A DNA stretch of 35,809 bases, taken from contig JABFSU010000069.1 in the NCBI GenBank assembly GCA_013140455.1, positions 1 to 35,809 on the forward strand. The letters run 5' to 3'. Both the position numbers and the translations under genes were made by a program. The DNA comes from Nitrospira sp. (GTDB lineage: Bacteria > Nitrospirota > Nitrospiria > Nitrospirales > Nitrospiraceae). The notes under the pieces were generated by a model. The model saw only the letters and a list, made by a program, of their open reading frames with translations, was not told the DNA's origin and made no database searches. Below, piece by piece: positions 1 to 15,850 of this stretch (positions are counted from its first letter, which is position 1; every line of letters starts with the position of its first letter).

Positions 1-455
1 CCGTTTCCGTAGACGCTATCCAGATCGAAAGCCGCTGTGCGGAAATTCGTCGTTCGCCGAGGATCGGTCCGTTCCATCAAAGGAGATCGGGGATCGAGCG
101 TGAGATAGTGATCGATAAACTGGCCAAGAAACGTCACCCCTGCCGTCATCGTGGGGTTATCCGGGTTATTGGGGCTATGGACGGCGGGGTTGAGGATGGA
201 TTGAATCGGGTCGGTGAGGAGATCCATGGCATCGATCGGTCCACCCAGGGTTCCAAGCCGCTTGGCCTGCTCGCGCATCTCGTCGGTTGCCGGTGCGAAG
301 GGGTTCAGGCCAGGAAACATCCTGGTAAAGGTATTCTCTGAGGATCGTGTCCGTTCCTGCGCTGATGCCGCGACTGGCAGTATTGCTACCATTGCCGCAC
401 AACAGAGTATCTGCATGGCGCTTAGCGGAGTCCATGCCGGCCTTTTTTGTACCAT
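1..455 (-). CDS. Exported animal-type haem peroxidase, N-terminal part (cut by window edge)
   Basis: The reading frame is open from an ATG at 455 to the window edge, about 151 codons. An N-terminal signal peptide ends near AASAQ (residues about 13-32). It is followed by an FLGQFIDHYLTLD block and an FDLDSVYGNG block, which match the animal haem peroxidase (An_peroxidase) family, where the His in the FIDH-type motif is the distal haem histidine. Family members oxidise small substrates with peroxide; an exported one would work in the periplasm or outside the cell. The start was chosen by the ribosome site: AAGGAG lies about 6 bases before the ATG at 455 but directly abuts the ATG at 461, too close to use. 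The catalytic C-terminal part is outside the window. Element B1 (765-832) lies about 310 bases upstream. Confidence 0.75.
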   Translation of the reverse strand, partial: MVQKRPAWTPLSAMQILCCAAMVAILPVAASAQERTRSSENTFTRMFPGLNPFAPATDEMREQAKRLGTLGGPIDAMDLLTDPIQSILNPAVHSPNNPDNPTMTAGVTFLGQFIDHYLTLDPRSPLMERTDPRRTTNFRTAAFDLDSVYGN

Positions 456-886
456 TCCCATCTCCTTCGTTTAGTTAAAGCCATCAAATACGACCAACAA
501 GTAAAGAGAAGTGCAATCTGCATTCCTCAAGCGCACAGCGTTAGATCAATTATTGGGTAAAGTTAGCTAGAGGAATTTCATGTGTGTACTGCAAAGGCAA
601 TGAAGAGCAAGTCGTTGAAAGTTAGTCATATGTGCCGATGACAATGCGACGACCATTTTATCCGCAGAGGAGAATAGAGTGCTTCGAGACACCTTCGGGG
701 ATGTGAAGGTTGGATCCATTGTATGCATTCGCCTCTCTCCGTGTCGGTCGTCATCAGAAAGTAAGGCGGGAGCCTCAGGAGGACTGAGGGCCCCCGCCTC
801 AAAGAGGCGGGATGCTACGAATCGCGCCTCTTTATTGGTGAAGGATATGTCAAGAAAGGTGTGGTCACCCTATCTCAACGATGTCG
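456..886. other. Intergenic stretch without a convincing gene
   Basis: This 430-base stretch separates the haem peroxidase from the PepSY-TM gene. It contains element B1 (765-832), described separately. The remainder is more AT-rich than its surroundings, consistent with a promoter region for the peroxidase. The short open frames on both strands have no ribosome site or recognisable protein features, and I do not call them. Confidence 0.5.
765..832 (-). repeat. Element B1: paired GC-rich hairpins
   Basis: This is the first of three related intergenic elements (B1, B2, B3). One hairpin pairs GGCGGGAGCCTCAG with CTGAGGGCCCCCGCC around the loop GAGGA (plus-strand reading). The second pairs AAAGAGGCG-GAT with ATC-CGCCTCTTT around a 7-base loop. 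The third hairpin of B2 and B3 is not recognisable here. It lies in the upstream region of the haem peroxidase gene. There is no T-run after either stem, so it is not an ordinary terminator. It could be a structured leader RNA or a REP-like mobile palindrome. Confidence 0.55.
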
Positions 887-1483
887 TCACTTGAGCTCGA
901 AGAGCAGTAGTGCCAGCAACGGCGGCAGCATTCCGGCGGCGATCAGCCATTTCCCTCTGCGCGCCATTCCATACTTGCCCTTCAAAAGGAACAATCCTGT
1001 AAAGCTGAGTATGATCAAGATCAGCGCAAAGACGTCCGCTGCCCATTTCCAGCCTTTGAGACGATTCAAGTGCAAAGCGTTGACCTGATATAAGACCGGT
1101 CTTCGTGAGACCTTCTCATATGTGCCATGTCCAGTTGCGAAGTGCAGATGAAGCGACGCGTTGTCATAATAGATCTTGACTTGATCTGGAGTTGGGAAGT
1201 CGTAGACTTTGTAGTCCTCTTCCTGGACCAGGTTTCCGAACTCTGCGATCCGCTCTTTTGTGATTTCCTCTTTCGTAAAGGGGTGAGGCAGCGAGATCGG
1301 TTGTTTCGAAATGACAAAGTCGGGATTCCAATCGCCGATGTGATTAAGGGCTATACCTGACAGGCAATAGGCCAGAATAAGCGAGGCGCAGGCGTACCCG
1401 ATATCCCTGTGCGCGGCCATGTTGAAGCGCGTGATGGCGTCCCCTTCCGGCCAGCGGAGCCTGGTTTTCATCCATTTCAGCAT
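887..1483 (-). CDS. PepSY-associated TM helix protein
   Basis: A 198-residue membrane protein with a predicted transmembrane helix near residues 25-45 and two more in the last third (about 140-160 and 170-195), around a periplasmic segment. The block HRDIGYACASLILAYCLSG followed by NHIGDWNP is typical of the PepSY-associated TM family (PepSY_TM_like_2). Members sit next to TonB-dependent receptors and iron-reduction genes and are thought to take part in metal or siderophore handling at the inner membrane; the precise reaction is not established. I start at the ATG at 1483, which overlaps the stop of the upstream chelatase-like gene (TGATG), implying translational coupling. The upstream-extended frame would run far into that gene. 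It is the last gene of the Fur-box cluster that begins at 7517. Confidence 0.75.
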   Translation of the reverse strand: MLKWMKTRLRWPEGDAITRFNMAAHRDIGYACASLILAYCLSGIALNHIGDWNPDFVISKQPISLPHPFTKEEITKERIAEFGNLVQEEDYKVYDFPTPDQVKIYYDNASLHLHFATGHGTYEKVSRRPVLYQVNALHLNRLKGWKWAADVFALILIILSFTGLFLLKGKYGMARRGKWLIAAGMLPPLLALLLFELK

Positions 1484-2412
1484 CAGTTCACTCTTGATAC
1501 TTGCGGTTGAATCTTTCGCACATACTCGTCGGTGACGGAGACCACCCATCGCTCGATGTTCAGATCGGGCAGAATGGAATCCGGTTTATATTGGACACGA
1601 TTCTTGCTGTCGGGTACCTTGGCGATCCCATCGCCGATAATCTTGATTTGAAACATTTCGTCGTGGGCGACCAGCACGGGGATGACGAGGGCCGTGCCTG
1701 AAGTCTTGAGAACCTCGTTGATGGCTGCGGTCGTCTCTTCCGGCTTATAGTTCGCGATATGGCCGCACCAGCCGTATGAATACCCCGCAATCCCGGTGTG
1801 CCGCCTGACGTACTCTGCCGCTTTGTCGAACAGATCGACCCATTCCTTATCGTATGTCTCGTCGCCATATCCGATCAGCACGAGGCCTTCATTGGCCGGA
1901 TTGTGTGAGAGGGCCGTCACTCGCCTGAGGAGATTTTTCTGAAGGATGTCCGTAAAGTCGAGCGGCGGGGTGATGTGGGGTTTTGCCTTCGGAGAGTATC
2001 GCTGAATATTCTCGATCTTGAGTTGTTGCATGGAATGCGGATCTTCTTTCAGCCCCACAATGGTCGGAATGTCGTCAAAGGTATGGGGGCTGACGGTGAG
2101 GAAGACCGGCACAATGATGACGTCGGTAAAGCCCTCTTGGTCGAATTCTTTCATGCGGGTGGCAATTGAGGGCTCCGTGTATTCCATGAAGGCGGTTTTA
2201 AGACCCTTGACGCTCGCGTGAGCCAGAATCGGCGCCGTGACTCGCGCTTCAAGATTTAAGAGAGATTGGCGCCAAGTCACGGACCGGGAGCCGTGATTGA
2301 CCAGTAATACCCCTATTTTTGTATCTGCATGGAACTCGGCGGTCCTTCCGGGGGTCTCCGACAGACACAGTGTTGCGAGCGCGACAAGCATTGCGAGCAT
2401 CTTGAATTTCAT
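1483..2412 (-). CDS. Exported CbiX/CbiK-like tetrapyrrole chelatase
   Basis: A 309-residue protein with a signal peptide (residues 1-25) and two CbiX-like halves. Family catalytic histidines are visible: His40 in LLVNHGSR, His110 in VFLTVSPHTFDDIP and His250 in VLVAHDEMFQ. CbiX/CbiK enzymes insert cobalt into sirohydrochlorin in the cytoplasm. The signal peptide here instead points to the periplasm, as for the periplasmic CbiK form known from Desulfovibrio, which binds haem. Sitting between a TonB-dependent receptor and a PepSY-TM gene, it more likely handles an imported tetrapyrrole or metal than makes vitamin B12. The ribosome site GGAGG lies 5 bases before the ATG at 2412. The metal and porphyrin substrates cannot be told from sequence. 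Confidence 0.75.
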   Translation of the reverse strand: MKFKMLAMLVALATLCLSETPGRTAEFHADTKIGVLLVNHGSRSVTWRQSLLNLEARVTAPILAHASVKGLKTAFMEYTEPSIATRMKEFDQEGFTDVIIVPVFLTVSPHTFDDIPTIVGLKEDPHSMQQLKIENIQRYSPKAKPHITPPLDFTDILQKNLLRRVTALSHNPANEGLVLIGYGDETYDKEWVDLFDKAAEYVRRHTGIAGYSYGWCGHIANYKPEETTAAINEVLKTSGTALVIPVLVAHDEMFQIKIIGDGIAKVPDSKNRVQYKPDSILPDLNIERWVVSVTDEYVRKIQPQVSRVN

Positions 2413-2468
2413 CTGTACCTCCGTTGTGAGTGAGGTTTCTGAACAAGAGACCGGTTCGATGTCCGGTA

Positions 2469-4535
2469 TTACAGCGTCATCCGCATGCCGACGTAGTAGA
2501 GATGCTGTCCTTCCGGAGGCGCGACGCCTCCGACTTGCACCCGCGACTCCGTGATATTGTCGGCACCGACATAGAACTCCATCCCATTAGCCAACGTTTT
2601 GGCCAGCCGCATATCGAGTTGAACATTCGCCGGAGCGAGTTCATTTTGGTCGCGGTCGATGCGTCCGTTTCCATTGGCGTCCGTGAATCCGAACGAAGAG
2701 AAGTAACGAAGCCTGGTCGTGAAGGTCCATCCGTCATACTCGATGTTGGCGCGGGTTTTCCAAGTATGGCGCGATCGGCCGAATAGATATTGGTCCGTGG
2801 TTTGGTCTCGCGCATCGACATACATGTATCCGGTTTCAAGGTAGAGCCACGTGAGGGGCCTGATTCCCCCCTCGAGTTCGAAGCCTTGGCTCCGCGTGAC
2901 AGCGGTGTTGAACGGCTTTTGGCAGAAATTTTGTGTGACGCCAAGACTGGCTGCTTCAGCCGCCGAGCAGGTGCCGTTGACGAATTGGATCAGATTGTTC
3001 ACGTCATGTCTGAAGACCGAGGCGCCGATCTTGGCGCGTTCAAAGTAGTATTCGACATTGGCGGTATAGCTTGTCGATTTCTCAGGCGCGAGATTGGGAT
3101 TGCCGACAATTCCGAAGAACCCGCCTTCGACGAAGGAGGCGCCAAGTTCAGATAAACCAGGGGATCGGAATCCTTTGGTGTAGGAGAAGCGACCCCGGAA
3201 GTTTCCAGGTTTGAGGAGCAGCGTTGCTTGCGGGCTCCAGGCTCCTCCTGCTTCGCTGTTCGTGGTATAGCGACTGCCGAGGACGAGATCCATCCATGGC
3301 AAGACGGAAATTTCATCCTGGAGCCAGCCGGCCGATTCAGTCAGGCGCTTGACGGCGGAGGAAGATGAGAAGTTCAGCCCTTCGATCGACCGGATATCAT
3401 GTTCGCCGCCCAATGTCAGCAGGTTGTGTTGATCGAGTTGGCGGGTGTATTGAAATTGCGGTTCCCAGAGCGTCTGGGTGTATTTCGATACCCGGGTTTG
3501 CGCGCCGGTTCCCAGCGTATTGGTGCGAGACTCGTTTTGGAAGCTTTGGTAGTGCCCCCACAAGCTCAAGGTCGATATTGCATCTGGACTCCAATCTATA
3601 CGGGCGACGGTCTGGTTGCGCTCATTGTTACTGGTGGTCTGGCTTCTGGTGGACGCGGCCGTTGCTCCTCCGAGGCTGATGCGATCCTGGTCGCTGTACT
3701 TGTTGTAGAGGGAGAACTTTGTCGAGTTTGAGAAGGCATAATCGAAGTTGGCGCTGATATTCTTCGTCGAGTAGCGCGGCTCTCCGTTCGTGACCGGTGT
3801 TTCAGGAATATAGTCGACGCCATCGGACTTCGAGACCCCCGCCGCGATGAATCCGCCAAACTTGCCGTCGGCGCTGCGGAATTCCGGTGCGGCAAACGTA
3901 GTGACGGTGTTGTAACGACCGTACTGGCCGGTAATGGTGCCGCCCAGAGGTTTCGTGCCTCGCTTGGTGCGGATATTGATGACCCCTCCGATGGCGTCGC
4001 TTCCGTACTGCACGGCGGCGGCTCCCTTGACGACCTCGATCGATTCGACATCGGGAGATGCCAGCAAATCTTCGGTAAACTGTCCTCCTTCGGTCGACCC
4101 GATCAATTCCTGTCCATTGACGAGAAACAGCGTATGGATGCTTTCGAGTCCCTGGATCTGAAACTGTTGAAAACGTCCTCCTGTCCGGCGAAATTCTATG
4201 GCCGGTACGTCTTGCAACACCTGCCGAAGATTGGTTGCGCCGGCCTGCTCGATCATTTTTGATGTAATACGCTCGATCTCGACGGGCGAGTCTTTCTGCG
4301 CATGCGGAGTCCAGGTTCCAGTGATGACAATGTCATCGACGTGGAGTCCGCTCTGAGGGGGTGCAACAGGTAGGAGGGCCGGATCAGCAGCCTTCGGAGA
4401 AGTATCGGGAACTGATGAAGAAGTTTCCTCGGCTGCCTGCGTATCGAACGGTGTCACCGCGTGCAGGCCTGTGATCGCCAGTATGGCGAGCACGGTCCGT
4501 GTAGAGATCAGAAAACCGGCTCTGTTCATATTCAT
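2469..4535 (-). CDS. TonB-dependent outer-membrane receptor
   Basis: A 688-residue receptor with a signal peptide ending near DTQAA, a TonB-box-like DDIVITGTW, a plug domain (about residues 60-180, containing NLRQVLQDVPAIE and VESIEVVKGAAAVQYGSDA) and a long beta-barrel ending in the aromatic/hydrophobic strand YYVGMRMTL. Such receptors import siderophores, haem, cobalamin or similar ligands using TonB energy. The ligand is not evident; the flanking exported CbiX-like proteins suggest a tetrapyrrole or metal chelate. The start at ATG 4535 has AAGGA at a good distance; an earlier ATG in frame (4640) would add an N-terminus with no signal character. It is followed 56 bases later by the CbiX-like gene at 2412. 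Confidence 0.88.
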   Translation of the reverse strand: MNMNRAGFLISTRTVLAILAITGLHAVTPFDTQAAEETSSSVPDTSPKAADPALLPVAPPQSGLHVDDIVITGTWTPHAQKDSPVEIERITSKMIEQAGATNLRQVLQDVPAIEFRRTGGRFQQFQIQGLESIHTLFLVNGQELIGSTEGGQFTEDLLASPDVESIEVVKGAAAVQYGSDAIGGVINIRTKRGTKPLGGTITGQYGRYNTVTTFAAPEFRSADGKFGGFIAAGVSKSDGVDYIPETPVTNGEPRYSTKNISANFDYAFSNSTKFSLYNKYSDQDRISLGGATAASTRSQTTSNNERNQTVARIDWSPDAISTLSLWGHYQSFQNESRTNTLGTGAQTRVSKYTQTLWEPQFQYTRQLDQHNLLTLGGEHDIRSIEGLNFSSSSAVKRLTESAGWLQDEISVLPWMDLVLGSRYTTNSEAGGAWSPQATLLLKPGNFRGRFSYTKGFRSPGLSELGASFVEGGFFGIVGNPNLAPEKSTSYTANVEYYFERAKIGASVFRHDVNNLIQFVNGTCSAAEAASLGVTQNFCQKPFNTAVTRSQGFELEGGIRPLTWLYLETGYMYVDARDQTTDQYLFGRSRHTWKTRANIEYDGWTFTTRLRYFSSFGFTDANGNGRIDRDQNELAPANVQLDMRLAKTLANGMEFYVGADNITESRVQVGGVAPPEGQHLYYVGMRMTL

Positions 4536-4648
4536 CCAATGCGTCCTTTGCGTTAAGAAGGTGACAGTGTGAGTGCGAAATCGGTGGTCATCGGCAGTCG
4601 AAGCGGTCATGGGGTCAACCCGCCTCGCTTGCTGAGGCATCGATCTCC

Positions 4649-6340
4649 CTAGGGCTGTGCCATGCGTCGTTGTTCAGTGTCGTGTGGAATCAATTCGGCG
4701 GTGAGTCGCCGGACACCGTCTTCCAGCCAGCGAGTCAAGACGGGGTCGACTAATCCTTTCTCGTTCATCTCGTAGGTCAACCCTTTCAGCATGGTTTTAT
4801 AGGGACCGGATCCGTAGAGGCGGTTGGCGATGACGAGCACCCGCCCGTTTTCCCCTCCGGCTTCGATCGCCGCGCGCACTGCAGCGACCGCTTGTTCACG
4901 CTCTTTGGGCCAATCCTCTCGGACGGTCAGTGCTTTCACCGCCTTGAGCTTGGCGCAGTGGGGATCCTGCCGAAGCCGATCGATGTTCTGGCTCATGACC
5001 GCCAGCCATTTGTCGTTGCCCTCGTCGGTGCCTTCTCCATGTGCGATGAGCAAAACGGTTTCATTTGCGGGATCCGTGCTCATTTCGGCGATGCGTTTGT
5101 GGAGAACTTGCGCAATGGCAGGGTTTTGCTCATACCCGCCGAACGTGGAGAAAAGAGCGGCCGTTCTGACTTGAGGAGGGGCCTCAGTCGCATGATCGTG
5201 TCCGCCCCCGTGGTCGGACCCAGGTACATCCTCAGCAAGGCCGAGAATGTAGTCCGTGAGCGATTTCATATGATGATCCAAGGCGTACATCCGGACGAAG
5301 ACAATCCGCCTGATTCCCCGTTGTTCGAGGCGAGAGACGGCGTCCTGAATGATGTGCGGGTCGCCCATTCCATAGGCCATTTCGACGGGGTATTGGGACA
5401 TGAGCGGTTGGATGGCCGATTCCACCGCGTCGTTCCACGGTTGAGTCGATCCGTGCGGCATGATGACGACCCCCAGCGACGCGGCCGAGAGTGGTGTTTC
5501 CCGATTCGCTGTTTTCTTCAACCACAGCAGGACATTCGGATGCGGAAGCAGTTCGTTCGGCTTATACACGACCTGGGTCTGCTTGAATTGACCGCCCAGC
5601 CAACTGGTCAGGGACATAGCCGTATCAAACTTGGGGCCGATCGATACCGGTACAAGCAGGGTACGACCTTGTTTGGCGATTTGAGCAAGAAGGCGGGACT
5701 TGATGTCTCTATTTTTCTGTTCGGCATTGTCCGCGGCGCGGTCATAGTAAATGACGGTCTCCGTATCGCGAAATTCTTTGTAGCGCTTGACGTATCCGAG
5801 CAACTTATCTACATCGGCTTTCAAGGCTATCGCACTGGCTTCATCCATGGCGCCGGTGCCGACGAGGATGAGTCGTTCAGCCGTGGCTTGCTCGCTCAGC
5901 GCCTCGACCCGATCGAGTACGATCTGGCCGATGAGGTAGTCGTGAGCCATGGCCGGTGCCCACCGGACGGGCAGTCCTCCGGTGTAGGCGGGTACAAGCG
6001 GCTTGATTCGCGTGAGTAACGGGTCAGCATCGGAGAGAAAGAGCGGGATGACCAGGATGTCGGTGGCTCCGGCTTGCTTCAACTCCTGCGCGGCCCGTGA
6101 GAGATACACCGCGTATTCACCGTCAACGCCCGTATAGTCACGGCCGACCAATCCAAGCGCAGCCGGATACGATTTCTTAAACTCCTCGACGAGGGTTCGA
6201 ACTTCTTGATTGCCGAGAAATCCGCGATCCGGAGCGACGACAAGAAAGCCGACTTGCGAGGGCGTTGCGGCATTCGCCGGCGTTCCGCTCGCGCAGAGCA
6301 TCACGAGTGCGGCGATGACGGACAGTTTGTGTAGGAACAT
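4649..6340 (-). CDS. Exported double CbiX-like protein with His-rich insert
   Basis: A 563-residue exported protein with a signal peptide at 1-25 and two tandem chelatase-like regions. The first (about 28-275) has lost the usual histidines: APDRG stands where HGSR is expected, and LFLSDADP where a His is usual. The second (about 287-555) keeps PHGSTQ (His296), ALDHHMKS (His356-357) and IAHGEGTDEG (His434), and carries a His-rich segment, SDHGGGHDHA (375-384), that could bind metal. Family knowledge points to tetrapyrrole metal chelation, but the broken first half and the export signal suggest a binding or delivery role. AAAGGA sits 8 bases before ATG 6340, and the gene follows tonB closely (16-base gap), so it should be co-transcribed. 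Confidence 0.7.
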   Translation of the reverse strand: MFLHKLSVIAALVMLCASGTPANAATPSQVGFLVVAPDRGFLGNQEVRTLVEEFKKSYPAALGLVGRDYTGVDGEYAVYLSRAAQELKQAGATDILVIPLFLSDADPLLTRIKPLVPAYTGGLPVRWAPAMAHDYLIGQIVLDRVEALSEQATAERLILVGTGAMDEASAIALKADVDKLLGYVKRYKEFRDTETVIYYDRAADNAEQKNRDIKSRLLAQIAKQGRTLLVPVSIGPKFDTAMSLTSWLGGQFKQTQVVYKPNELLPHPNVLLWLKKTANRETPLSAASLGVVIMPHGSTQPWNDAVESAIQPLMSQYPVEMAYGMGDPHIIQDAVSRLEQRGIRRIVFVRMYALDHHMKSLTDYILGLAEDVPGSDHGGGHDHATEAPPQVRTAALFSTFGGYEQNPAIAQVLHKRIAEMSTDPANETVLLIAHGEGTDEGNDKWLAVMSQNIDRLRQDPHCAKLKAVKALTVREDWPKEREQAVAAVRAAIEAGGENGRVLVIANRLYGSGPYKTMLKGLTYEMNEKGLVDPVLTRWLEDGVRRLTAELIPHDTEQRRMAQP

Positions 6341-6356
6341 AGAGTGTGTCCTTTCT

Positions 6357-7517
6357 TCAGCGGTCCAGGTGGTAGAGAACAGGGATATAGACGTCGATAT
6401 GAGATTGACCGAGCTCATATTGGAGATGGATGGGCGTGGCGCGATGCATGAGGCTGAGCGCGTCTTGATCCAGAGAGACAAAGCCGGAGCTCTCAGCCAC
6501 GACGGCGCTAAGTAACTGGCCGTCATCTCCTATCGTGGCATGCACGACGACTTTTCCTTCCCATCCCTGCATGGCCGCGAGGCGCGGATAGGCTTGCAGA
6601 CTTTTGATCTTTCGCTTGAGCAGATCCTTCAGCCAGCCAAAGTCTGATCGAGCGGGGATGGTTCTGGTGATGGGGGGATGTCCCATAGCGATGATCGCAT
6701 GATGGGCATCAGAGGAGTCTGCTTCACTGGTCTGTGCGGCAACTGAGGAGTTCCCGGATTCAGCGCCGCGTGTTGTGGTGTCTACAGAAGATGAATGGGG
6801 CTCTGCCGTGGCTGTGTGATTGCCCTGAGCGGAAGATGGCGCATGTTCAGAATGAGAGGAAGCGCTCCCAGTCGATTCAGTCGATGACGGCGCCTGGGGC
6901 TCTCCCTGCGCGACGGGGGATTCTTGATGCGCTATGGTCGATTGCGTCACGTGAGTGAGTGTGGGCTCGATCGACCGTTCAATCACGTGAGGAGAAGGCT
7001 GGACAGTAGGAGCAAGGACTTCGTTGGCCACGGGACTGCTTTCAATACGCTGTTCCATGGGTCGAGAGGTGGTGACAGGAGTGGATGTGAGAATTGCGGT
7101 GGATGACACGATGTCCCGTTCGATTCGAGTGACGGGGGTGGATTGGATCAGTGGTTGATAGATGGTCGCGGGGGAGCTGTCGGGGGGTGGCTCGGCCACT
7201 CGTGATTGTGAGGCCGCGGGTTCGTGATGCGGGCGTGCCGCTGCCGATGCGGCTGGTGTCACGGCGGCGGTGGGGCTTTGGCTGGCAGAATGCGCGTCAG
7301 CGATACCCGCAGAGCTTTGGATGACAAGGTCCATGCGGTATGCCGACGGCGGGAACTCAGGAAGGTCGCGGAGAAGCACGGCTGCCGTGGCGACGACAAT
7401 GGCATGCACGCAGAGGGATACTCCCCAGGCCGACGTGAGCCGGCGAGGCTGATCGATCGAACAGACGAGCGTGGCTGAAAGCGCGTGGCTTGAGGATACG
7501 GCTGGCATATGCTCCAT
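6357..7517 (-). CDS. tonB: TonB-family energy transducer (first copy)
   Basis: A 386-residue protein with one N-terminal membrane helix (about residues 32-52), a long Ser/Thr/Pro/His-rich periplasmic linker (about 70-280) and a C-terminal TonB domain (YPRLAAMQGWEGKVVVHATI onwards). It would transmit proton-motive energy from ExbBD to the outer-membrane receptor encoded two genes downstream. No exbBD is next to it; the pair at 22039-22831 may serve both TonB proteins. A near-perfect Fur box (7521-7535) ends 4 bases before ATG 7517. This leaves no room for a ribosome site, so translation may start at the next in-frame ATG (7508) or be nearly leaderless. Confidence 0.82.
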   Translation of the reverse strand: MEHMPAVSSSHALSATLVCSIDQPRRLTSAWGVSLCVHAIVVATAAVLLRDLPEFPPSAYRMDLVIQSSAGIADAHSASQSPTAAVTPAASAAARPHHEPAASQSRVAEPPPDSSPATIYQPLIQSTPVTRIERDIVSSTAILTSTPVTTSRPMEQRIESSPVANEVLAPTVQPSPHVIERSIEPTLTHVTQSTIAHQESPVAQGEPQAPSSTESTGSASSHSEHAPSSAQGNHTATAEPHSSSVDTTTRGAESGNSSVAAQTSEADSSDAHHAIIAMGHPPITRTIPARSDFGWLKDLLKRKIKSLQAYPRLAAMQGWEGKVVVHATIGDDGQLLSAVVAESSGFVSLDQDALSLMHRATPIHLQYELGQSHIDVYIPVLYHLDR

Positions 7518-7520
7518 AGG

Positions 7521-7535
7521 TGATAATTATTCTCA
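7521..7535. promoter_or_regulatory. Fur box upstream of tonB
   Basis: TGATAATTATTCTCA on the plus strand (TGAGAATAATTATCA on the minus strand) matches the 7-1-7 Fur consensus with a single mismatch. It overlaps a likely -10 region (AATAAT) for the tonB gene at 7517, so iron-loaded Fur would block the promoter. A fur gene lies at 26822-27253 in this window. Confidence 0.8.
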
Positions 7536-7564
7536 AAATCATATATCGCAAACAACGCGGCGAT

Positions 7565-7596
7565 GAACATGTTCGATCTCCTGATAAACATGTTTA
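7565..7596. promoter_or_regulatory. Two tandem palindromes, possible operator
   Basis: GAACATGTTC (7565-7574) and TAAACATGTTTA (7585-7596) share an ACATGT core, and their centres are 21 bases apart, two helical turns. Such spacing suits cooperative binding of two repressor or activator dimers. They lie in the 135-base gap between the tonB start and the end of the upstream permease gene, just upstream of the Fur box. The binding protein is unknown. Confidence 0.45.
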
Positions 7597-7652
7597 CTTT
7601 CCTGGCGAAAGAAATATGGCTCTGATCGTACGAGGTCTGCCGTGAGGGGTTT

Positions 7653-8825
7653 CTATCGGCCAGGGGCGCGCAATGCGGCAGCGACAGACAAGCGGGCAGC
7701 CCGAATTGCCGGAGGGATTCCTCCGATCATGCTGATGCCCAGTGCAAACCCCATTGTGGACAGCGCGGAGGCGGGAGTCAGTGTCAGGCGGAATGCGAGT
7801 TCAGAAAAAGTGCTGAAGTTCATTGTCGAGAGAGTGACAAACTGCAAAGCCGTGCCACCTCCGATGGCCAGCAGCCCGGCCAAGGCCCCGAGCGTCAGGG
7901 ACTCGAACAATAAGGCCGATAGAATTTGGTGCGGCTGGAATCCCAGTGCCCTCAGCATCCCGATTTCTCTTGTGCGCGAAGCGACGGCTCCGTACATGGT
8001 CATAGTGCCTCCCAGGACAGCCCCCACGGCAAAGATGAAGGTGAAGGTGAAGCCCAGGAGGCGAATGAAGGTGGCCATCGTCATCGATTTGTCTCGGTAG
8101 TAATCGCGTTCCCGTTTCACCTGCAGCAGGAGCCTGGTATCCGCCGCGATGGCGTCATCTATAGATTGAAACGCCGATGAACTGGATAGACGCAGGGTGA
8201 GCGACGAATAGGAGTCCCGTCCATAGGCGGACATGAGCTGGTCGACGTCGCCCCAAATCTCTGACTCGAAGGCCGTTCCCTGTGCCTCCGCGATGCCGAC
8301 GACGAGCCACTCCCGTTTCCCTATACGCAGATGAGAGCCGATACCGTCGCGAAGAAATCGTGTGGCGATTTGAGCGCCGATGACGATTTCAGTCGTGCCG
8401 GGTTGCCAGGGGCGCCCCTGGCTCAGACGAACCTGTGGCCGGAGTATGAAGGCGTCCGGCCGGGTGCCCCGGACCACGACATTTGCAAGGGTATCGGTTC
8501 CATTTTTTGCCAGGCTGATCAAGACAACCAATTCGGGAATCGCCAGGGGTTCGCCGCCGGACGTCTGCGCAATGTCGGCGAGCGTGCGCACGATGTGCGC
8601 TTGATCGCGATAGATCCCGCTCGCGATCTCCGTGGTCGCGCCTTTCCGCAGCAGCAGCACGTTATCCGGCGAACCGCTTTCGATCAATGCCCGGTTCAAT
8701 CCATTTCCCAGCATGAGGACCGCCAGCAGGATCAGGCTGACCAGTGCCAATCCCGCGATGGTCAGCGCTGCCGTACTGCTTCGCACCCAGACGTTTCGAA
8801 GACTGTAGGCCAAGAGGAGTTTCAT
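7653..8825 (-). CDS. FtsX-like ABC permease (MacB type), second permease
   Basis: A 390-residue permease with an N-terminal membrane helix (about 20-42), a large periplasmic domain (about 45-255) and three C-terminal helices. The block SRTREIGMLRALGFQPHQIL is the conserved cytoplasmic coupling segment of FtsX/MacB permeases. These proteins work as mechanotransmission exporters or lipoprotein movers together with a LolD-like ATPase. It follows the first permease by 11 bases and closes the araC-adaptor-ATPase-permease-permease run. The substrate cannot be deduced; the neighbourhood of iron and haem genes makes export of a toxic metal chelate or small molecule plausible. Confidence 0.82.
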   Translation of the reverse strand: MKLLLAYSLRNVWVRSSTAALTIAGLALVSLILLAVLMLGNGLNRALIESGSPDNVLLLRKGATTEIASGIYRDQAHIVRTLADIAQTSGGEPLAIPELVVLISLAKNGTDTLANVVVRGTRPDAFILRPQVRLSQGRPWQPGTTEIVIGAQIATRFLRDGIGSHLRIGKREWLVVGIAEAQGTAFESEIWGDVDQLMSAYGRDSYSSLTLRLSSSSAFQSIDDAIAADTRLLLQVKRERDYYRDKSMTMATFIRLLGFTFTFIFAVGAVLGGTMTMYGAVASRTREIGMLRALGFQPHQILSALLFESLTLGALAGLLAIGGGTALQFVTLSTMNFSTFSELAFRLTLTPASALSTMGFALGISMIGGIPPAIRAARLSVAAALRAPGR

Positions 8826-8836
8826 GGATCAGGATC

Positions 8837-10006
8837 CTATCCGGGGTTATGCAAGTCCTCCGCGATCTTGTCGCGCAGGAGTGCAAAAATTGGGAATATC
8901 GCCGCACAGACGGCGATGCACAGGGTGATGGACGCGCTCAACAGCAAGGTGCTTGGGTACAGGGTCAGATGTTGAAAAAAGTTTCCCAGTTTGGCAGCAA
9001 GGAGCACCCCATAGAAGTGTGAGGCGGGGATCGTGATGGCGATACCCAGGGCCGAGCCTATCCCTGCAATGAGCAGCGCTTCTCCCGTGACCAAACCCGC
9101 CAGGTGGCGTGGTCGAAATCCGAGCGTTCGCAGGACGGCCAATTCCTTCGTGCGCTCGCGCACGGCCATCACGAGGGTATTGGCGAGCACCAGCAAGGTG
9201 ACGCCGTTGAGTATGATCGCCAGAAGCTTCAGTGCGCTGATAATGGCTCCGGACATGGCGACGAAGCCGGCTTGAAACGCTTGCTCGGTTTCCGTTCTGG
9301 TCTCCGAGGTGGAATTGGCAAATTCCGCATCCACCAATCGGCTCACGCGTCCGGCGAGGGAGGGATCGGCAATGCGGATGACGTACCAGCCGACCGTGCC
9401 GGCCCGGTCCGGGTCACTTTGCTGTCGGCGTTCGTTCATGTAATCCCAGCGCAAGAGCATCCAGGTCTCATCCGTGGCGGCGTCGGCCCCGCGATAGATC
9501 CCGCGCACGACGAATTCCCAGTCTCCGGGATAGAGCGTTCCTTTGAGCGCGATGACATCTCCGACTTTCCACCCATAGAGCGCGGCTAGTCGGCGACCGA
9601 TCAGGCATCCCCGGCGATCACTGAGAAAGGCCTGGCGTTCGTCCGCCGGTATCGACAGTTCGCTATGAAGGTCCAGAAACGACGCCGGTTCGACGGCGAA
9701 CTGAGGGAAAAATCCCTTGGCGTCCCGGTAGACTCCTCCGAACCAGTTGGCGTAGGTGACCCCGGTCACCCCATCCAGCGAAGCGATACGGTCTCGATAG
9801 GCGAGCGGGAGATGAATGGACAGCGACGCGGCATGGCGAGCGATCAGTCTGTTCGGGACCGAGGCCTCGACTCCGGCGTACCAGGCACGAACCGTCGTGA
9901 CGATGAGGTTGAAGGCGAGGATGACGGTGGCGATGCCGAGCGCTGTCAGCACGACGCGCAGGGGATGCCGCCGAAGATTGCGAACGATCAAGGTCCCAAG
10001 CGTCAT
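8837..10006 (-). CDS. FtsX-like ABC permease (MacB type), first permease
   Basis: A 389-residue permease with the same plan as its neighbour: an N-terminal helix (about 16-40), a periplasmic domain, then three helices with the coupling motif RERTKELAVLRTLGFRPRHL near residue 285. Its start codon overlaps the ATPase stop codon (ATGA at 10003-10006), showing translational coupling. Two different permeases in one operon suggest a heterodimeric channel rather than the MacB homodimer, and here the ATPase is a separate protein, as in LolCDE. Confidence 0.83.
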   Translation of the reverse strand: MTLGTLIVRNLRRHPLRVVLTALGIATVILAFNLIVTTVRAWYAGVEASVPNRLIARHAASLSIHLPLAYRDRIASLDGVTGVTYANWFGGVYRDAKGFFPQFAVEPASFLDLHSELSIPADERQAFLSDRRGCLIGRRLAALYGWKVGDVIALKGTLYPGDWEFVVRGIYRGADAATDETWMLLRWDYMNERRQQSDPDRAGTVGWYVIRIADPSLAGRVSRLVDAEFANSTSETRTETEQAFQAGFVAMSGAIISALKLLAIILNGVTLLVLANTLVMAVRERTKELAVLRTLGFRPRHLAGLVTGEALLIAGIGSALGIAITIPASHFYGVLLAAKLGNFFQHLTLYPSTLLLSASITLCIAVCAAIFPIFALLRDKIAEDLHNPG

Positions 10007-10683
10007 GAGCTCGCCACCGTGCCTTTGTCGAAGTGGAGGGTCTCTTGAGCATAGTCGGCGGTCCGTGGATCGTGGGTCACCATGAGGATGGTCTTATTGA
10101 GTTCCCGATGAAGTTTCGTGAGGAGGGCCATGACGGCTTCGGCTGCGCTTCGGTCAAGATTGCCGGTGGGCTCATCGGCTAATAAGATCGTGGGATCGCT
10201 GACGATGGCACGGGCGATCCCGACGCGTTGCTCCTGCCCCCCGGACAACTGGCGGGGATAATGATCGATCCGGTCCTTCAGCCCGACGAGGCCGAGCGCC
10301 GCACGGACATGCGTGGCGCGTTCCTGTCGTGTCAGCGTGCTCAGCAGCAGCGGCAGTTCCACGTTTTCCGCTGCGGTTAACACCGGAATGAGATTGTAGA
10401 ACTGGAACACGAAGCCGATGTGCCGCGCCCGCCATCGGGCGAGATCCGATTCTCCTTGCTGCGAGACGGTAAGACCGGCTGCGCGGATCGTTCCCTGAGT
10501 CGGACGGTCTAGCCCGGCGACCAGATTGAGGATCGTGGTCTTGCCGGATCCGGATGGACCCATGATCGCAAGAAAGCGCCCCGGCGGCACGGATAAGCTG
10601 AAATCTTTGAGGACCGGGATCTCCTGCTCTCCTCGAAAATAGGATTTGGAGACACGTTGAAATTCAACAACCGGGGCGGTCAT
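10003..10683 (-). CDS. LolD/MacB-type ABC transporter ATPase
   Basis: A 226-residue ATPase with Walker [13 protein letters not shown] (about residues 40-51), signature [14 protein letters not shown] (about 140) and Walker [13 protein letters not shown] (about 160), followed by the H-loop VTHD. This is the LolD/MacB/FtsE subgroup that drives FtsX-like permeases. It sits between the adaptor gene and the two permease genes, with ATGA overlaps on both sides, so the four proteins are almost certainly made in fixed proportion and form one complex. Confidence 0.9.
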
Positions 10684-11942
10684 GGCTGGGGCTCCTCTCG
10701 CTGGGGTATTCGTGAACGGACGTTCATGCCGGCGTGCAGCGACGGCGGCGGCGCGAGGATCACCTGTGACGACGCGGTCAAGGTTCCTCGCACGTCGCTG
10801 TCTCCACCGCTCCTGGACAGTTCTTCTACGGAGACTTCCCGGGCGACCCCGTTTTCGAGCACATAGAGGATGGATCGGCCGTTCTTCTGCACGAGTGCGG
10901 ACGAAGGAACGAACAGCCGCGGCGCGGTTGAATCGCTCGGTCGAGCGACCGGTGAGAACGAGACCTTGGCGCTCATTTCCGGGAGTACGCGCTCGTCACG
11001 CTCGACGAAGCGAACTTTTGCCAACACCGTGCCTTTGGACCGGTCGGCAGTCGGCACGATTTGTTCGACCGTTGCGGGATAGTGTTTGCCCTGCAGCGCG
11101 TCCAGAGTGATCTCGGCTGATTGGCCCTGCGCGATCTGTGAGAACGAGGATTCCGAGATCTCCGTCTCGACCGCGAGCGAGTTCATATCCGCGATAAGGA
11201 CCACCGCTCCGCGCGAACTGGCAGAGCTGGCCATCGGCGCGACGACTTCGCCGATCTCGGCAAATTTCTTTAAGACGGTGCCGTCGAACGGTGCTCGTAT
11301 CAGCGTGTTCTCCAGCATGACGTCGGCGGTCTGTACGTCGGCTTCCGCCGCCGTAATGGCGGCCGCCGCAGATCGCACCGTCGCTTCCGCACGTCGGAGA
11401 CGTGTGGCTGTCGTGTCGAACTCGGCTTGTGAGATAAACTGATTTGGCAGTAAGGCCTCGGCTCGTGCGTAACTGAGCCGGGCGTCCCGCTGTTCGGCTT
11501 GGGCGTTTGTCAGCGCGGCTTTGGCCACATCCAGGCGTGCCTGCACCTGGCGTTGAACGGCTTGGACGTCGTCTTGCTGAACCCGCGCAATGATGTCACC
11601 GGTTGTGACGCGGCTGCCGACGGAGACGGCGAGATATTCCAGACGCCCGGTACCTTTGGACGCGACAGAGGCTTGTCTCTGCGCGACGACATATCCACTG
11701 GCGCTCAAGAGCGACGACGGCGTGGCGCTCCCGACGATCCGCACCGGAGCGGTGTCAACCTCCGGCAAGGAGGAGAGCTCTGGAAGAACCCAATAGAAGA
11801 GCCCTGCCAGGCAACCGCTACAGACGATGCTTGCGCCAACCCATCTGAGCCAGGGCCTTGATTTGCGGGGTTCTTGTGGAGATTCTTCCCGCGGCAAGGT
11901 GAGGACGGACACGTCTGCATCTCGAATCGGCGGAGCGGTCAT
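10680..11942 (-). CDS. Periplasmic adaptor (HlyD/MacA family)
   Basis: A 420-residue membrane-fusion protein. One N-terminal helix (about residues 30-52) anchors it, a lipoyl/barrel-sandwich region flanks a coiled-coil hairpin (about 120-200, Ala/Gln/Glu-rich), and beta-barrel and membrane-proximal domains follow. Adaptors of this family link an inner-membrane transporter to an outer-membrane channel; no TolC-like gene is in the window. Its start overlaps the stop of the AraC gene (ATGA at 11939-11942) and its stop overlaps the ATPase start. Confidence 0.88.
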   Translation of the reverse strand: MTAPPIRDADVSVLTLPREESPQEPRKSRPWLRWVGASIVCSGCLAGLFYWVLPELSSLPEVDTAPVRIVGSATPSSLLSASGYVVAQRQASVASKGTGRLEYLAVSVGSRVTTGDIIARVQQDDVQAVQRQVQARLDVAKAALTNAQAEQRDARLSYARAEALLPNQFISQAEFDTTATRLRRAEATVRSAAAAITAAEADVQTADVMLENTLIRAPFDGTVLKKFAEIGEVVAPMASSASSRGAVVLIADMNSLAVETEISESSFSQIAQGQSAEITLDALQGKHYPATVEQIVPTADRSKGTVLAKVRFVERDERVLPEMSAKVSFSPVARPSDSTAPRLFVPSSALVQKNGRSILYVLENGVAREVSVEELSRSGGDSDVRGTLTASSQVILAPPPSLHAGMNVRSRIPQREEPQP

Positions 11943-12598
11943 GAATGGTCCCTTGTCGGAATGGGGCGTGATTTGAGGGGGCGCCGGCAGCGTTCCGATC
12001 GAAACTGGATCGGGGATTGGCCGGTCGCTCGCTTAAAGAAATGGCTGAACGCAAACTGATCGCAGAATCCGATGGCCGTCGCGATTTCAGCTACGCCTTT
12101 TTCCGTGGTCTGCAGCAATAGGCTGGCGGTTTCAAGTCGGCGACGCTTGAGATGCGTGGAGAACGATTCGCCCATCGTGCTGTGGAATAGATCGGAGCAA
12201 TACTTTTCCGAATATCCGAGAAACTGCGACAAGAGTTTGAGTGTTAAGCCCTTGTGGAGATTTGCAGTCATGAACTCGTGAATGCGCGTTGAAAGAGGCG
12301 GCTGCGAGGCCGTGGTGTCCCCGTTTGCCGGATTGAGGACATGTGCCAAGTTGAACAGACCGCTGATCACCTCCAAGAATTCTCGCTCCGATTTCACCTG
12401 GGCCAGTCGATCGGCCCAGTGGGGGGCGTAGCGGCTTAGTTCTGCTGTGAGTGTGTGAATGCGTCTAGCAAGCATGATTGGCTGTGCAGGTTTCGTCATC
12501 TGTGAAGCGAATCCCATTCCACTGCTGTATGTCAGCGAAGCTGCGCCGACATCATGATGAACGCCATAAGGCTGTGTGATATCGGGCTCTGGACTCAT
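11939..12598 (-). CDS. AraC-family transcriptional regulator
   Basis: The C-terminal part (about residues 110-205) carries two helix-turn-helix units typical of AraC, including GVAEIATAIGFCDQFAFSHF and the FKRATGQSPIQFR end. The N-terminal part (about 45-95) resembles no sensor I can name. It probably controls the export operon it heads, since its stop overlaps the adaptor start. The start is uncertain. A TTG at 12640 would extend the frame without support. I chose ATG 12598, with GAGG rather close and GGGAAGG further back. That ATG lies in the loop of element A1, so either the element controls initiation or the real start is later (ATG at 12517 or 12499). Confidence 0.75.
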   Translation of the reverse strand: MSPEPDITQPYGVHHDVGAASLTYSSGMGFASQMTKPAQPIMLARRIHTLTAELSRYAPHWADRLAQVKSEREFLEVISGLFNLAHVLNPANGDTTASQPPLSTRIHEFMTANLHKGLTLKLLSQFLGYSEKYCSDLFHSTMGESFSTHLKRRRLETASLLLQTTEKGVAEIATAIGFCDQFAFSHFFKRATGQSPIQFRSERCRRPLKSRPIPTRDHS

Positions 12599-12635
12599 GT
12601 CCTCTGGCCTTCCCACACACGTTCGTGTGGCGTGG
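12584..12635 (-). promoter_or_regulatory. Element A1: structured RNA motif at the araC start
   Basis: Read on the minus strand, a strong hairpin (12612-12635, loop AA) precedes the core at 12584-12609. The core has an outer stem GGC/GCC, an internal loop of CAGA and AGA, an inner stem GGAC/GTCC and the loop ATGA. The loop contains the likely araC start codon. Unlike A2 and A3 it has no terminator, but CCGATATC beside its 3' arm (12578-12585) can pair with GATGTCGG (12546-12553) downstream. It lies between the Com-like gene (stop 12650) and araC. Confidence 0.55.
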
Positions 12636-12649
12636 TTCAACCAACTCGA

Positions 12650-12853
12650 CTAAGACATCCGGGGCGGCGTTCCGCGAATCAACTCAATCGGGACGTACAC
12701 CAGGCGGCGGCACCGCTTGCATTTGATTTCCAAGCCTCTCCCTGTCCATCGGGCAATCAGTTGTCCGCATGCGCAGCGAAGGCTGCCGTCATGAGGTTGT
12801 TGTCGGTCCTGTCTGTCCACCTGTGCACACTCCTGATCCGAGACTGGAGTCAC
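12650..12853 (-). CDS. Com-like small zinc-ribbon protein 1
   Basis: A protein of up to 67 residues with a Cys-X-Cys pair (Cys27, Cys29) and a Cys-X2-Cys pair (Cys45, Cys48) around GQLIARWTGRGLEIKCKRC. This matches the Com family of phage Mu, where Com is a zinc protein that binds its mRNA and switches on translation of mom. It is closely similar to the protein at 19285-19464. It lies between elements A2 and A1. The annotated start is GTG 12853, but its GGAG is only 2 bases away. GTG 12820, with AGGAG 9 bases before it, is an equally good choice and leaves the cysteine domain intact. The function here is unknown; RNA-linked regulation is an inference from family and context. Confidence 0.7.
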   Translation of the reverse strand: MTPVSDQECAQVDRQDRQQPHDGSLRCACGQLIARWTGRGLEIKCKRCRRLVYVPIELIRGTPPRMS

Positions 12854-12873
12854 CGCTCCGTAAAAGGTTCCAT

Positions 12874-12907
12874 AAAAAAGCCCATGGCCACTGTGTGACC
12901 ATGGGCT
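12874..12907 (-). terminator. Intrinsic terminator of the A2 attenuator
   Basis: On the minus strand AGCCCATGG pairs with CCATGGGCT, extended inward by TCAC/GTGG with one G-U wobble, and is followed by six T residues. It ends about 20 bases before the start of the Com-like gene at 12853. Its 5' arm includes the GCC that closes element A2, so the two structures cannot coexist in full. Confidence 0.8.
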
Positions 12908-12960
12908 CTGGACTCGGTGTCCTTTGGCCTCGTCTTCCTGGTTCGCTGACCGGGAAGACG
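12903..12960 (-). promoter_or_regulatory. Element A2: attenuator-type RNA motif before com-like gene 1
   Basis: On the minus strand a long hairpin (12931-12960, arms CGTCTTCC and GGAAGACG) leads into the core at 12903-12929. The core has an outer stem GGC/GCC, internal loop strands CAAA and AGA, an inner stem GGAC/GTCC and the loop ACCGA. The 3' GCC of the core is shared with the terminator at 12874-12907. Stabilising the core would therefore weaken the terminator and allow transcription of the Com-like gene. Element B2 lies directly upstream. Confidence 0.65.
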
Positions 12961-12971
12961 TATGTAAATGA

Positions 12972-13063
12972 GGGCGGGGGGCCCCAGGAGGACTGAGGGC
13001 CCCCGCCTGTGAAGTGGGAGGTCATGGCTCCCACTCCGCTGCCGGCGCGTGGAGCGCGCCGGC
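12972..13063 (-). repeat. Element B2: three-hairpin repeat
   Basis: Three hairpins in a row, about 92 bases, align base for base with B3. In plus-strand order they are a GC-rich arm pair around CCCCAGGAGGACTGAGG, a GTGGGAG/CTCCCAC hairpin with a 7-base loop, and GCCGGCGCG/CGCGCCGGC around TGGAG. It lies just after the stop of the di-haem peroxidase gene and directly before element A2 of the Com-like gene, so the two elements together make a leader of roughly 200 bases. Confidence 0.65.
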
Positions 13064-13095
13064 TGGTCGTTCTATTCACATCTTATCTGTCGTGG

Positions 13096-14955
13096 TTATT
13101 CATAGTCCTCGTTCAACGCTCTAAGAAAGGCTGCCAGAGGGCCGACATCCTGGTCACTCAAGCGGATGCCGCCGAGTTCCCGGTCTCCATTGCGCAGCAG
13201 CCCCGTGCGCTGGAGATTCGAGGAACCTCGATAAAAGTCGACGATTTGCTCCAGGGTATCGAATTGTCCGTTGTGCATATAGGGCGCCGAGTGTCCAAGG
13301 TCGCGAAGGCCCGGTGTTTTGAAGACGGCCACACTGGACGGCAAGAGTGCCTGTGCGCTGCACCGCCCCACGAACGGCGCGCTGTCCATCACCTGATCCA
13401 GTGCGTCGTCTGTCTGTGTCGAGAAGGGGCTCAGCCCATGCTGGCCGGCGCTGAGAGTCTCTGCGCAGAGGATGCGCCGGACACGGCGCTGAGAGGCGGA
13501 GAAATCGGGATTGGCAAAGACATTCCAGACGCCGAGGTCGGTCAGGCCAGGCTGGCCGGCCGATGGGACCTTCCGGAAAGGCTCCAGGGCATGGGGATGC
13601 TGCTCAGTGGCGGGCAGATACAGGTTATGGGCGGTATTCCGTTCGCGGAGGTCCGGGATTCTGAGTTGCGCGAATAACCCCGCCCCGTGAATCCGGTCAT
13701 ATTCCGCTTGGGTCGTTCCGGTATTGTGCATACGGAAATCTGTGAAGGTCGGTGCCTGATGGCAGGCGATGCAATTCCCGACTTTCCCGCGAGTCGCGGT
13801 GGATAATGCATTCAGCCCATGGCGTGTCTCTGCGAAAAAGATCTTCAATCCACGCAGTTCCTCGGCTCCGAACGTGAACGGTTGGTCGTGAAATGGAAAT
13901 GCGCCGTCGGCGGTGGCAGGATCGCGTTTGACGAATTTCAGGTGCCGGTGATGTTTTCGAAGTTTCTTGTGCGGATGCTGGGACACCCAGGACAGACTAT
14001 TGCCATGCTCCAGCCGTTCGATCGAGGCCAGCAGTCGCCGGCTGTACTCCAATGGGCTTTCCCGAAGCGCTGGCTTTCGGGGTAGGCCGTTTTTCTCCAA
14101 GAACACATCGTAGGGAGAGAGGTTGAAGGCGCCGCTCTCGTCCTGTGAAAACACCAGACCTTCAGTGTAAGCGCTGACCAGGTTTGCCACGGCGTGGAAG
14201 ATGTCCGTGTCCGACGCAGTTGCCACGTTCAGACGGAAGGCTTCAGGGAGGCGAAACTCTTCGGGAATCGAGGGGGCGGTTCCTTTCAAGACAACGGCGT
14301 ACGGTAACCCGCCGAAATCCTGGGCCAGCGGGCCGGTTCCATCGTCTTCCCGGACAATGCGGGCCAGATGGGCAATGGCCTGTGCCCGTTCGCCTGGCAG
14401 CCAGCCGAAATTGCGTCCTGAAAAGGTGGCCTCGACCAGCCCCGCCGTCGTCGCGAATTCGGCATCGAAATGCAGCAGAAGCCCGCCGCTCCGCGGAAGC
14501 GTCGCGTTGACCAGCGAAGGGGAATTGCGCGGGGCAGCGGTCATCCCGTCTGCGCGGGCGGGGACCGGACTGCGCCGGGCAAAATCGGCATAGGTCCGCA
14601 TCGTGCCGCCCGGCGTCTCGACGTGCTCATCGACCAAATGACAGGCCCTGCAGTTCATGGACAGCCCTGCGAACGGACCGGGCAGCGGCTCGCCGATGGT
14701 GACGGTTTTGTCCATGACCGGATCGCCAGCTGGCAAGGGATCATTTACCGCTGCCCCTTCGGCGAGGAACTGCTGAAAGAACTGCGCGAATCTCGTTTCA
14801 AGGAATAACCGCTCGCCGACGGTGATTTCAGGCGGATCTGCGGCGGCCTCCTGGGCCTGAGCGACGGAGGACAATGATTCCATGCCTATTAGGAAGCAAA
14901 GGAGGACACCGATGAAGACCATCCTTCTGGCAGTGCGACGATTCAACTGCATCAT
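13096..14955 (-). CDS. Exported di-haem cytochrome c peroxidase-like protein
   Basis: A 619-residue exported protein with a signal sequence at 1-35 and two c-type haem sites: Cys102-Arg-Ala-Cys105-His106 and Cys395-Ile-Ala-Cys398-His399. The C-terminal TPGLRDLGHSAPYMHNGQF, with Met560 as possible axial ligand, is typical of the CcpA/MauG family, which reduces peroxide or oxidises protein residues in the periplasm. It is much longer than ordinary bacterial peroxidases (about 330-350 residues), the haem sites being nearly 300 residues apart. A His-rich stretch (HPHKKLRKHHRHLK, 327-340) lies between them. ATG 14955 has GGAGG at a good distance; an upstream in-frame start at 14982 has no support. 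Element B3 lies in its leader. Confidence 0.82.
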   Translation of the reverse strand: MMQLNRRTARRMVFIGVLLCFLIGMESLSSVAQAQEAAADPPEITVGERLFLETRFAQFFQQFLAEGAAVNDPLPAGDPVMDKTVTIGEPLPGPFAGLSMNCRACHLVDEHVETPGGTMRTYADFARRSPVPARADGMTAAPRNSPSLVNATLPRSGGLLLHFDAEFATTAGLVEATFSGRNFGWLPGERAQAIAHLARIVREDDGTGPLAQDFGGLPYAVVLKGTAPSIPEEFRLPEAFRLNVATASDTDIFHAVANLVSAYTEGLVFSQDESGAFNLSPYDVFLEKNGLPRKPALRESPLEYSRRLLASIERLEHGNSLSWVSQHPHKKLRKHHRHLKFVKRDPATADGAFPFHDQPFTFGAEELRGLKIFFAETRHGLNALSTATRGKVGNCIACHQAPTFTDFRMHNTGTTQAEYDRIHGAGLFAQLRIPDLRERNTAHNLYLPATEQHPHALEPFRKVPSAGQPGLTDLGVWNVFANPDFSASQRRVRRILCAETLSAGQHGLSPFSTQTDDALDQVMDSAPFVGRCSAQALLPSSVAVFKTPGLRDLGHSAPYMHNGQFDTLEQIVDFYRGSSNLQRTGLLRNGDRELGGIRLSDQDVGPLAAFLRALNEDYE

Positions 14956-15028
14956 GACAAACCTCCGTGGTGGAACCACCAATGATTCCTCCTGAAAATA
15001 GAACCGGCCTCCGTTCGAGTAATACGTA

Positions 15029-15120
15029 GGCGGGAGGCCTCAGGACGATCTGAGTGCCCCCGCCCATGAAGCGGGAGCGTACAACTCCCACTTCGGTGCC
15101 GGGGCGTGGAGCGCGCCGGC
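15029..15120 (-). repeat. Element B3: three-hairpin repeat in peroxidase leader
   Basis: This copy matches B2 along its whole length with scattered differences, most of which keep the pairing. In the middle hairpin GAAGTGGGAG/CTCCCGCTTC pairs fully as minus-strand RNA through a G-U pair, but would have a C-A mismatch as plus-strand RNA. That supports transcription in the direction of the di-haem peroxidase gene, whose start is about 75 bases downstream. A small hairpin (14968-14981) lies between it and the ribosome site. Confidence 0.65.
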
Positions 15121-15162
15121 TGATTTCTTGAGGTCTCGGTGAAATTCATCTGACGAATCGCT

Positions 15163-15837: not shown

Positions 15838-15850
15838 CGGAACTCCTCCA

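Follow-up and report, generated by a model that had tools for sequence, protein, structure and literature searches.

What does a protein built from two chelatase-like halves do between tonB and a receptor gene? The question was raised by a minus-strand gene at 4649..6340 of the window (the whole stretch of Nitrospira DNA that was analysed, 35,809 nt long, from a genome of 3.79 Mb), and by an earlier note that had read its product as a periplasmic metal or tetrapyrrole carrier derived from a chelatase. The 563-aa product was assigned by ORF, Pfam, profile alignment and fold, and is called DCH here (double class II chelatase-like protein). Its identity in other Nitrospira is 70-93%.

Gene order and domain matches

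The cluster was read along the minus strand in the order AraC, adaptor, ABC ATPase, two MacB-type permeases, tonB, DCH, receptor, CbiX-like protein and PepSY_TM-like protein. The AraC-type regulator (11939..12640), the LolD/MacB-like ABC ATPase (10003..10683) and the two MacB-type permeases (FtsX; 8837..10006 and 7653..8825) were assigned by family match, and the periplasmic adaptor (HlyD/MacA-like; 10680..11942) by TIGR01730 at 171 bits (cut-off 94.9). The tonB gene (6357..7517; Pfam TonB_C 44.6 bits, cut-off 24.6; TIGR01352 50.7, cut-off 27.1) ends 16 nt before the DCH ATG at 6340, and the DCH stop is followed after 8 nt by the start of the TonB-dependent receptor gene (2469..4640), which among NCBIfam models fits the haem receptor TIGR01785 best, at a score well under the cut-off. 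These short gaps suggest that DCH shares one transcript with tonB and the receptor. The position given in the earlier note was thus confirmed, and the adjacency of DCH and receptor is conserved across genera. Beyond the receptor lie a second CbiX-like protein of 309 aa with a signal-peptide-like start (1483..2412; Pfam CbiX 53.8 bits) and a PepSY_TM-like membrane protein (887..1483; PF16357 63.9 bits, cut-off 27), whose gene start was inferred from relatives (longest ORF 887-1549). No TolC gene was seen in the cluster. A sigma-70 promoter scan gave a result below chance, and Rfam models, including the cobalamin riboswitch, gave zero matches in window positions 1-16000. Also observed, at window positions 13096-14982 upstream of the AraC gene, was a protein of 628 aa that has CxxCH motifs and weakly matches a RoxA-like cytochrome.

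By inspection of the translation, DCH begins with a signal-peptide-like N-terminus (residues 1-24; 6269..6340, minus strand), with hydrophobic residues 8-17 and ANA at 22-24. The homologues have similar hydrophobic starts, and no lipobox cysteine is conserved in the DCH alignment. We infer that DCH is probably exported, as the earlier note had proposed; nothing points to the cytoplasm. Pfam CbiX matched the whole of DCH at 25.7 bits (cut-off 22), with no one stretch significant by itself, and Pfam Ferrochelatase scored 17.4, under its cut-off of 27. The CbiK family model was absent among the Pfam/NCBIfam matches of DCH up to E 0.1, there was no Pfam/NCBIfam match to CobN or another class I chelatase domain, and the CfbA nickelochelatase model NF033198 scored 23.7 against a curated cut-off of 120.

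Two bilobed units and their invariant residues

DCH is divided into unit 1 (residues 26-282; 5495..6265, minus strand) and unit 2 (residues 283-563; 4652..5494, minus strand), each assigned by alignment, profile and fold. When profiles cropped to residues 26-282 and 283-553 were compared by hhalign, the units aligned with each other at probability 98.9 with an E of 2e-17; unit 1 and unit 2 also aligned, at 98.3 and 92.6, respectively, with the operon's single CbiX-like protein. Since the unit profiles align mutually and with the single CbiX-like protein, DCH is a tandem fusion of two bilobed units with four lobes. The description of DCH as double therefore stood, each "half" being itself bilobed.

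Residue conservation was taken from an alignment of 27 DCH homologue rows, which omits a copy with an in-frame stop (G188 contig 55), a split copy (G253), two duplicates (L015 and L051) and fragments in G036, G203, G259, G329, G375 and G378 (L and G numbers denote locus entries and genomes of the survey, respectively). H267, H296, H434, M294, M325 and D38 are invariant in 27/27. In unit 1, a bilobed chelatase fold without the usual metal-site His, these are replaced by an invariant Asp-Arg-Gly (D38-R39-G40), in agreement with the claim that the first half lacks the catalytic histidines. In unit 2, H296 (codon 5453..5455, minus strand; PHG motif) aligns with H40, the first canonical His of the single CbiX-like protein, and H434 (codon 5039..5041, minus strand; AHG motif) lies in the second lobe. 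The claim that the second half keeps its histidines held for these two and failed in part for H357, which aligns with the second canonical His (H110): residue 357 is His in 17/27, Gln in 8/27 and Ser in 2/27, and a His at 356 or 357 was found in 22/27 homologues. A His pair inside one lobe is lacking from unit 1 and, in unit 2, would consist of an invariant H296 and a variable H357. Because H296 and H434 are invariant and H357 is not, unit 2 is best described as having one invariant HisGly motif per lobe. The single CbiX-like protein kept H40, E77 and H110 in 12/12 homologues, with H218 and H250 also invariant, and from these residues looks like the likelier active chelatase of the operon.

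The His-rich insert to which the earlier note had drawn attention (residues 375-384; 5189..5218, minus strand) is present, although weak (3 His per 10 residues) and variable among the 27 rows: residues 368-389 contain at least two His in 21/27, one in 2/27 and none in 4/27. The profile alignment places it at the His run of 6m25, an archaeal chelatase of solved structure. Judged by the alignment, the insert is a variable, lineage-specific loop and not the defining feature of DCH.

AlphaFold2 models were built from only 8 related sequences, and the pLDDT was 59.7 for the whole of DCH and 65.6 for unit 2 alone, both low confidence; unit 2 was folded separately because of the low confidence of the full-length model. 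In these low-confidence models, unit 1 matched coproporphyrin ferrochelatase and SirB at Z of about 15 (8aw7 at 15.1), and unit 2 matched SirB at Z 15.1 (5zt7), CbiK and the Porphyromonas FetB (PDB 9b86) at 13.2, and periplasmic CbiK at 12.9. Among the 50 rows listed for unit 2, the sole entry that is neither a chelatase nor chelatase-like is the last (Z 10.7); 2jh3 we take to be a chelatase-like protein. The comparison with CbiK that the earlier note had proposed as a check gave periplasmic CbiK (2xvz) as the top Foldseek match of unit 2 (E 5e-6). With the whole-DCH model, the top Foldseek ranks went to TorT and sugar-binding proteins, at a poor rmsd. A PDB search with the single DCH sequence returned one chance-level match only, and matches to PDB chains needed the DCH family profile. 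Both units are thus predicted to have a class II chelatase fold and match solved class II chelatases best, which agrees with descent from a chelatase and not with an unrelated fold.

Distribution, neighbours and the probable ligand

The DCH profile matched 31 of the 395 Nitrospirota genomes sampled. Near-full-length DCH was found at 26 places in 23 of the 395 (11 genera), the remaining matches being fragments or the single CbiX-like protein only. Several fragments carry in-frame stops; such decayed remnants lie at 7656-7922 of L022 and at places in G378, G329 and G203. The decayed remnants in several genomes point to repeated loss. Beyond Nitrospirota, the search covered plasmids and, by a close-relative method, genome contigs. 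Homologues annotated as hypothetical were found on Candidatus Manganitrophus plasmids: on two plasmids the stretch with DCH also encodes a receptor, a ferritin-like and a PepSY protein, and on a third the DCH gene is broken into four ORFs. In the Manganitrophus plasmid entries L059, L060 and L063, the module is accompanied by a DUF3016 protein.

To describe the neighbours, 33 locus entries were used, of which two pairs are duplicates or near-duplicates and one (L014) is almost without flank. Within 9 kb of DCH, we found a receptor in 28/33, TonB in 19/33, exporter parts in 19/33, PepSY in 16/33, ferritin in 11/33 and a single CbiX-like protein in 11/33; some genomes have arrays rich in receptors that inflate these counts, and the entries cannot be treated as independent. 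In comparison, the 22 carrier genomes searched (about 77 Mb) contain 259 Plug and 63 ferritin matches, which gives a genome-wide expectation per stretch of 0.066 for the receptor and 0.016 for ferritin. Bacterioferritin adjoins the DCH cluster in relatives, and the exporter type varies by lineage, being MacAB-like in Nitrospira, RND beside L041 and L044, and ABC-2 beside L036. Three other proteins recur at these loci: a spermine-synthase and TPR protein of about 1000 aa between the haem receptor and DCH in three genomes (L018 4722-7832, L019 9955-13029 and L046 3599-6657); a secreted-looking protein of about 214 aa with no Pfam match between DCH and a haem-type receptor (L021 10741-11385, L013 (two), L014, L015, L047 (two), L050 and L052); and an OmpR-type DNA-binding protein (PF00486) between the receptor and the single CbiX-like gene (L021 13865-15490 and L015 5439-6455).

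The adjacent receptors were scored against a haem-receptor model with a cut-off of 316.85. Three exceeded it (L018 432.6, L019 422.8 and L046 438.4), each passing both TIGR01785 and TIGR01786, and in four more (L015, L021, L047 and L050) haem was the best model at 270-307, below 316.85. The window's own receptor scored 149.7 for haem, 126.1 for haem/lactoferrin and 120.3 for B12 (B12 cut-off 599.7). The receptors of L043 and L059 lean to siderophore models, under cut-off. FRAP/NPNL is a haem-receptor motif; a loose pattern for it was found in 4/18 receptors with no His between, and was not used as evidence. The haem-binding protein HmuY was found in 6/395 genomes, in two of them about 2 kb from a DCH homologue, and was not found in the window's genome; the four other HmuY genomes are without DCH, so that the tie is one-sided. 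In the short stretches seen of these four genomes, the ORF listing showed no large CobN-like gene and no clear hmu operon look. The idea that DCH replaces a CobN-type HmuS beside HmuY throughout the phylum is unsupported by these four genomes and was dropped. On contig 55 of G188 (L061 and L036), the DCH copy with one in-frame stop shares its strand with a receptor, ExbB, DUF2149, RnfD, PhyH, ApbE and a CobN-like protein. Judged from its genes, this cluster may be a haem or cobalt system supplied with electrons, and it was counted in favour of haem. Haem oxygenase (PF01126) was found in 0/22 carrier genomes, so haem would have to be opened by another route if it serves as a source of iron; FeoB_C was likewise found in 0/22, and FeoB was set aside as the iron route into the cytoplasm. 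Taken together, the haem receptors, haem-binding proteins and iron-storage proteins beside relatives suggest haem as the probable ligand of DCH, which may also remove the iron from it.

The reading given in the earlier note is supported in part. Two invariant histidines in a kept chelatase architecture fit either a carrier or an enzyme that removes or swaps metal. As a pure haem or porphyrin carrier, the account nearest to that of the earlier note, DCH would have kept its cleft for binding, lost its chemistry, and would carry haem from the receptor to a partner in the inner membrane. The loss of His from unit 1 and the variable second-site His of unit 2 are consistent with this, and from the alignments H296 and H434 could be two axial ligands; however, a CbiX-like protein with H40, E77 and H110 in the same cluster (11/33 entries) suggests that the pathway includes chemistry, and we consider a pure carrier possible but improbable. 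A different ligand, set by the receptor, would make ferric siderophores or other iron chelates the source from which DCH releases iron. The receptors beside L040 and L044 pass the siderophore model cut-off and not that for haem, PepSY_TM and PNPOx are same-strand neighbours in L040, and PepSY and ferritin neighbours recur. The genomes of L040 and L044, however, contain 30 and 20 receptors, many of them in arrays, so that a receptor next to DCH could be there by chance; other homologues have haem receptors and HmuY as neighbours, and the chelatase fold is known for tetrapyrroles. Iron release from siderophores is therefore rather unlikely.

It is very unlikely that DCH is a periplasmic cobalt or nickel chelatase for cobalamin-type synthesis or metal supply. 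CbiK and SirB are among its best structural matches, and one homologue has a nearby CobN-like gene that may code for a cobaltochelatase, but no cobalamin riboswitch or other Rfam match was found in window positions 1-16000, the B12 score of the receptor and the CfbA score of DCH are both far below cut-off, and the neighbours include iron storage. The chance is slighter still that DCH exchanges metals to make other metalloporphyrins, e.g., of manganese, the role that a review gives to FetB. Of the haem-linked structures FetB comes closest (Z 13.2), the review describes a FetB-dependent Mn-protoporphyrin (PMC13402209), and homologues are present in Candidatus Manganitrophus, whereas no manganese gene was recognised among the scanned neighbours, and the ferritin and haem-receptor neighbours fit iron better.

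Proposed mechanism and comparison with known systems

Our preferred reading, held tentatively and at somewhat less than an even chance, is that DCH is a periplasmic, chelatase-derived haem-handling protein that cooperates with the receptor, the second CbiX-like protein, the PepSY protein and the MacAB-like exporter. Haem or another iron tetrapyrrole would enter by the TonB-dependent receptor, energised by the neighbouring TonB, and would bind in the unit 2 cleft, approached by H296 from one lobe and by H434 from the other. Following reduction by the PepSY membrane protein, iron would be removed, probably with the aid of unit 2, alone or with the second CbiX-like protein. The iron would end in bacterioferritin, and the emptied porphyrin could exit by the MacAB-like pump; unit 1, its metal site lost, may serve in binding, docking or support. 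A more specific and, as a whole, doubtful proposal is that Nitrospirota have a periplasmic haem-iron system whose class II chelatases work in reverse, in which the tandem double and the single protein would strip receptor-delivered haem, with electrons from PepSY, iron storage by bacterioferritin, porphyrin expulsion by the MacAB-like pump, and neither haem oxygenase nor a CobN-type HmuS. If true, nitrifying and manganese-oxidising Nitrospirota would be able to take iron from other cells' haem, using a combination of parts that the literature found does not describe for this phylum; class II chelatases, mainly known as metal inserters, would gain a reverse branch outside the cytoplasm; and "hypothetical proteins" would become a testable haem-iron module, a class II counterpart of HmuS.

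CbiK(P), the periplasmic cobaltochelatase of Desulfovibrio vulgaris, reportedly binds haem; it is an exported protein with a CbiK fold, as DCH is predicted to be, but consists of one unit, whereas DCH has two and no Pfam CbiK match. The best profile and fold matches of DCH are SirB/CbiX and CfbA, and the insert of DCH falls at the position of a His run in an archaeal enzyme of CfbA type. SirB, CbiX and CfbA, however, act in biosynthesis and carry their His pairs at fixed sites (PMC11301274), whereas DCH has one invariant His per lobe in unit 2 and, in unit 1, none at the corresponding positions. A His pair in one lobe is given for CbiK and CbiX-L in a review (PMC7689651). Homodimeric CfbA has a four-His arrangement (PMC11301274), which by sequence comparison is the nearest pattern to that of DCH unit 2.

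A class II chelatase fold outside the cytoplasm together with a receptor was already known. In Porphyromonas gingivalis, IhtB/FetB lies by the receptor IhtA and shares with DCH this fold, a place outside the cytoplasm that for DCH is probable, and a TonB-dependent receptor. IhtB, a CbiK-like protein beside its receptor, has been proposed to take iron off haem (PMC10913741), and a review attributes metal exchange in porphyrins to FetB (PMC13402209). IhtB/FetB differs from DCH in being a single-unit reported lipoprotein, DCH having two units and no conserved lipobox cysteine, and in working with a reported ABC importer where the DCH cluster has a MacAB-like exporter; PDB searches by sequence and profile gave no detectable sequence match between the FetB chain and DCH. 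As a counter-example, disruption of a CbiK-like gene in Bacteroides fragilis was without effect on haem-iron use, according to unpublished data quoted in PMC6460266. No description was found in the literature of a tandem double unit, its first half lacking the metal-site His, in such a setting.

HmuS of Bacteroidota, which removes iron from haem (PMC12583661), shares with DCH the setting of a receptor, HmuY and proposed iron removal. It is a CobN-type class I chelatase of about 1450 aa that needs NADH and membrane, unlike DCH, which is without a CobN match. The MacAB-TolC system resembles the window's cluster in its adaptor, ABC ATPase and MacB-type permeases, which here lie upstream of DCH; it differs in that the cluster has the ATPase and two permeases as separate genes, with no TolC gene seen. 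Protoporphyrin is exported by MacAB of E. coli (PMC4263509). By analogy with IhtB, FetB, HmuS and MacAB together, the cluster may be read as receptor, iron removal and porphyrin export.
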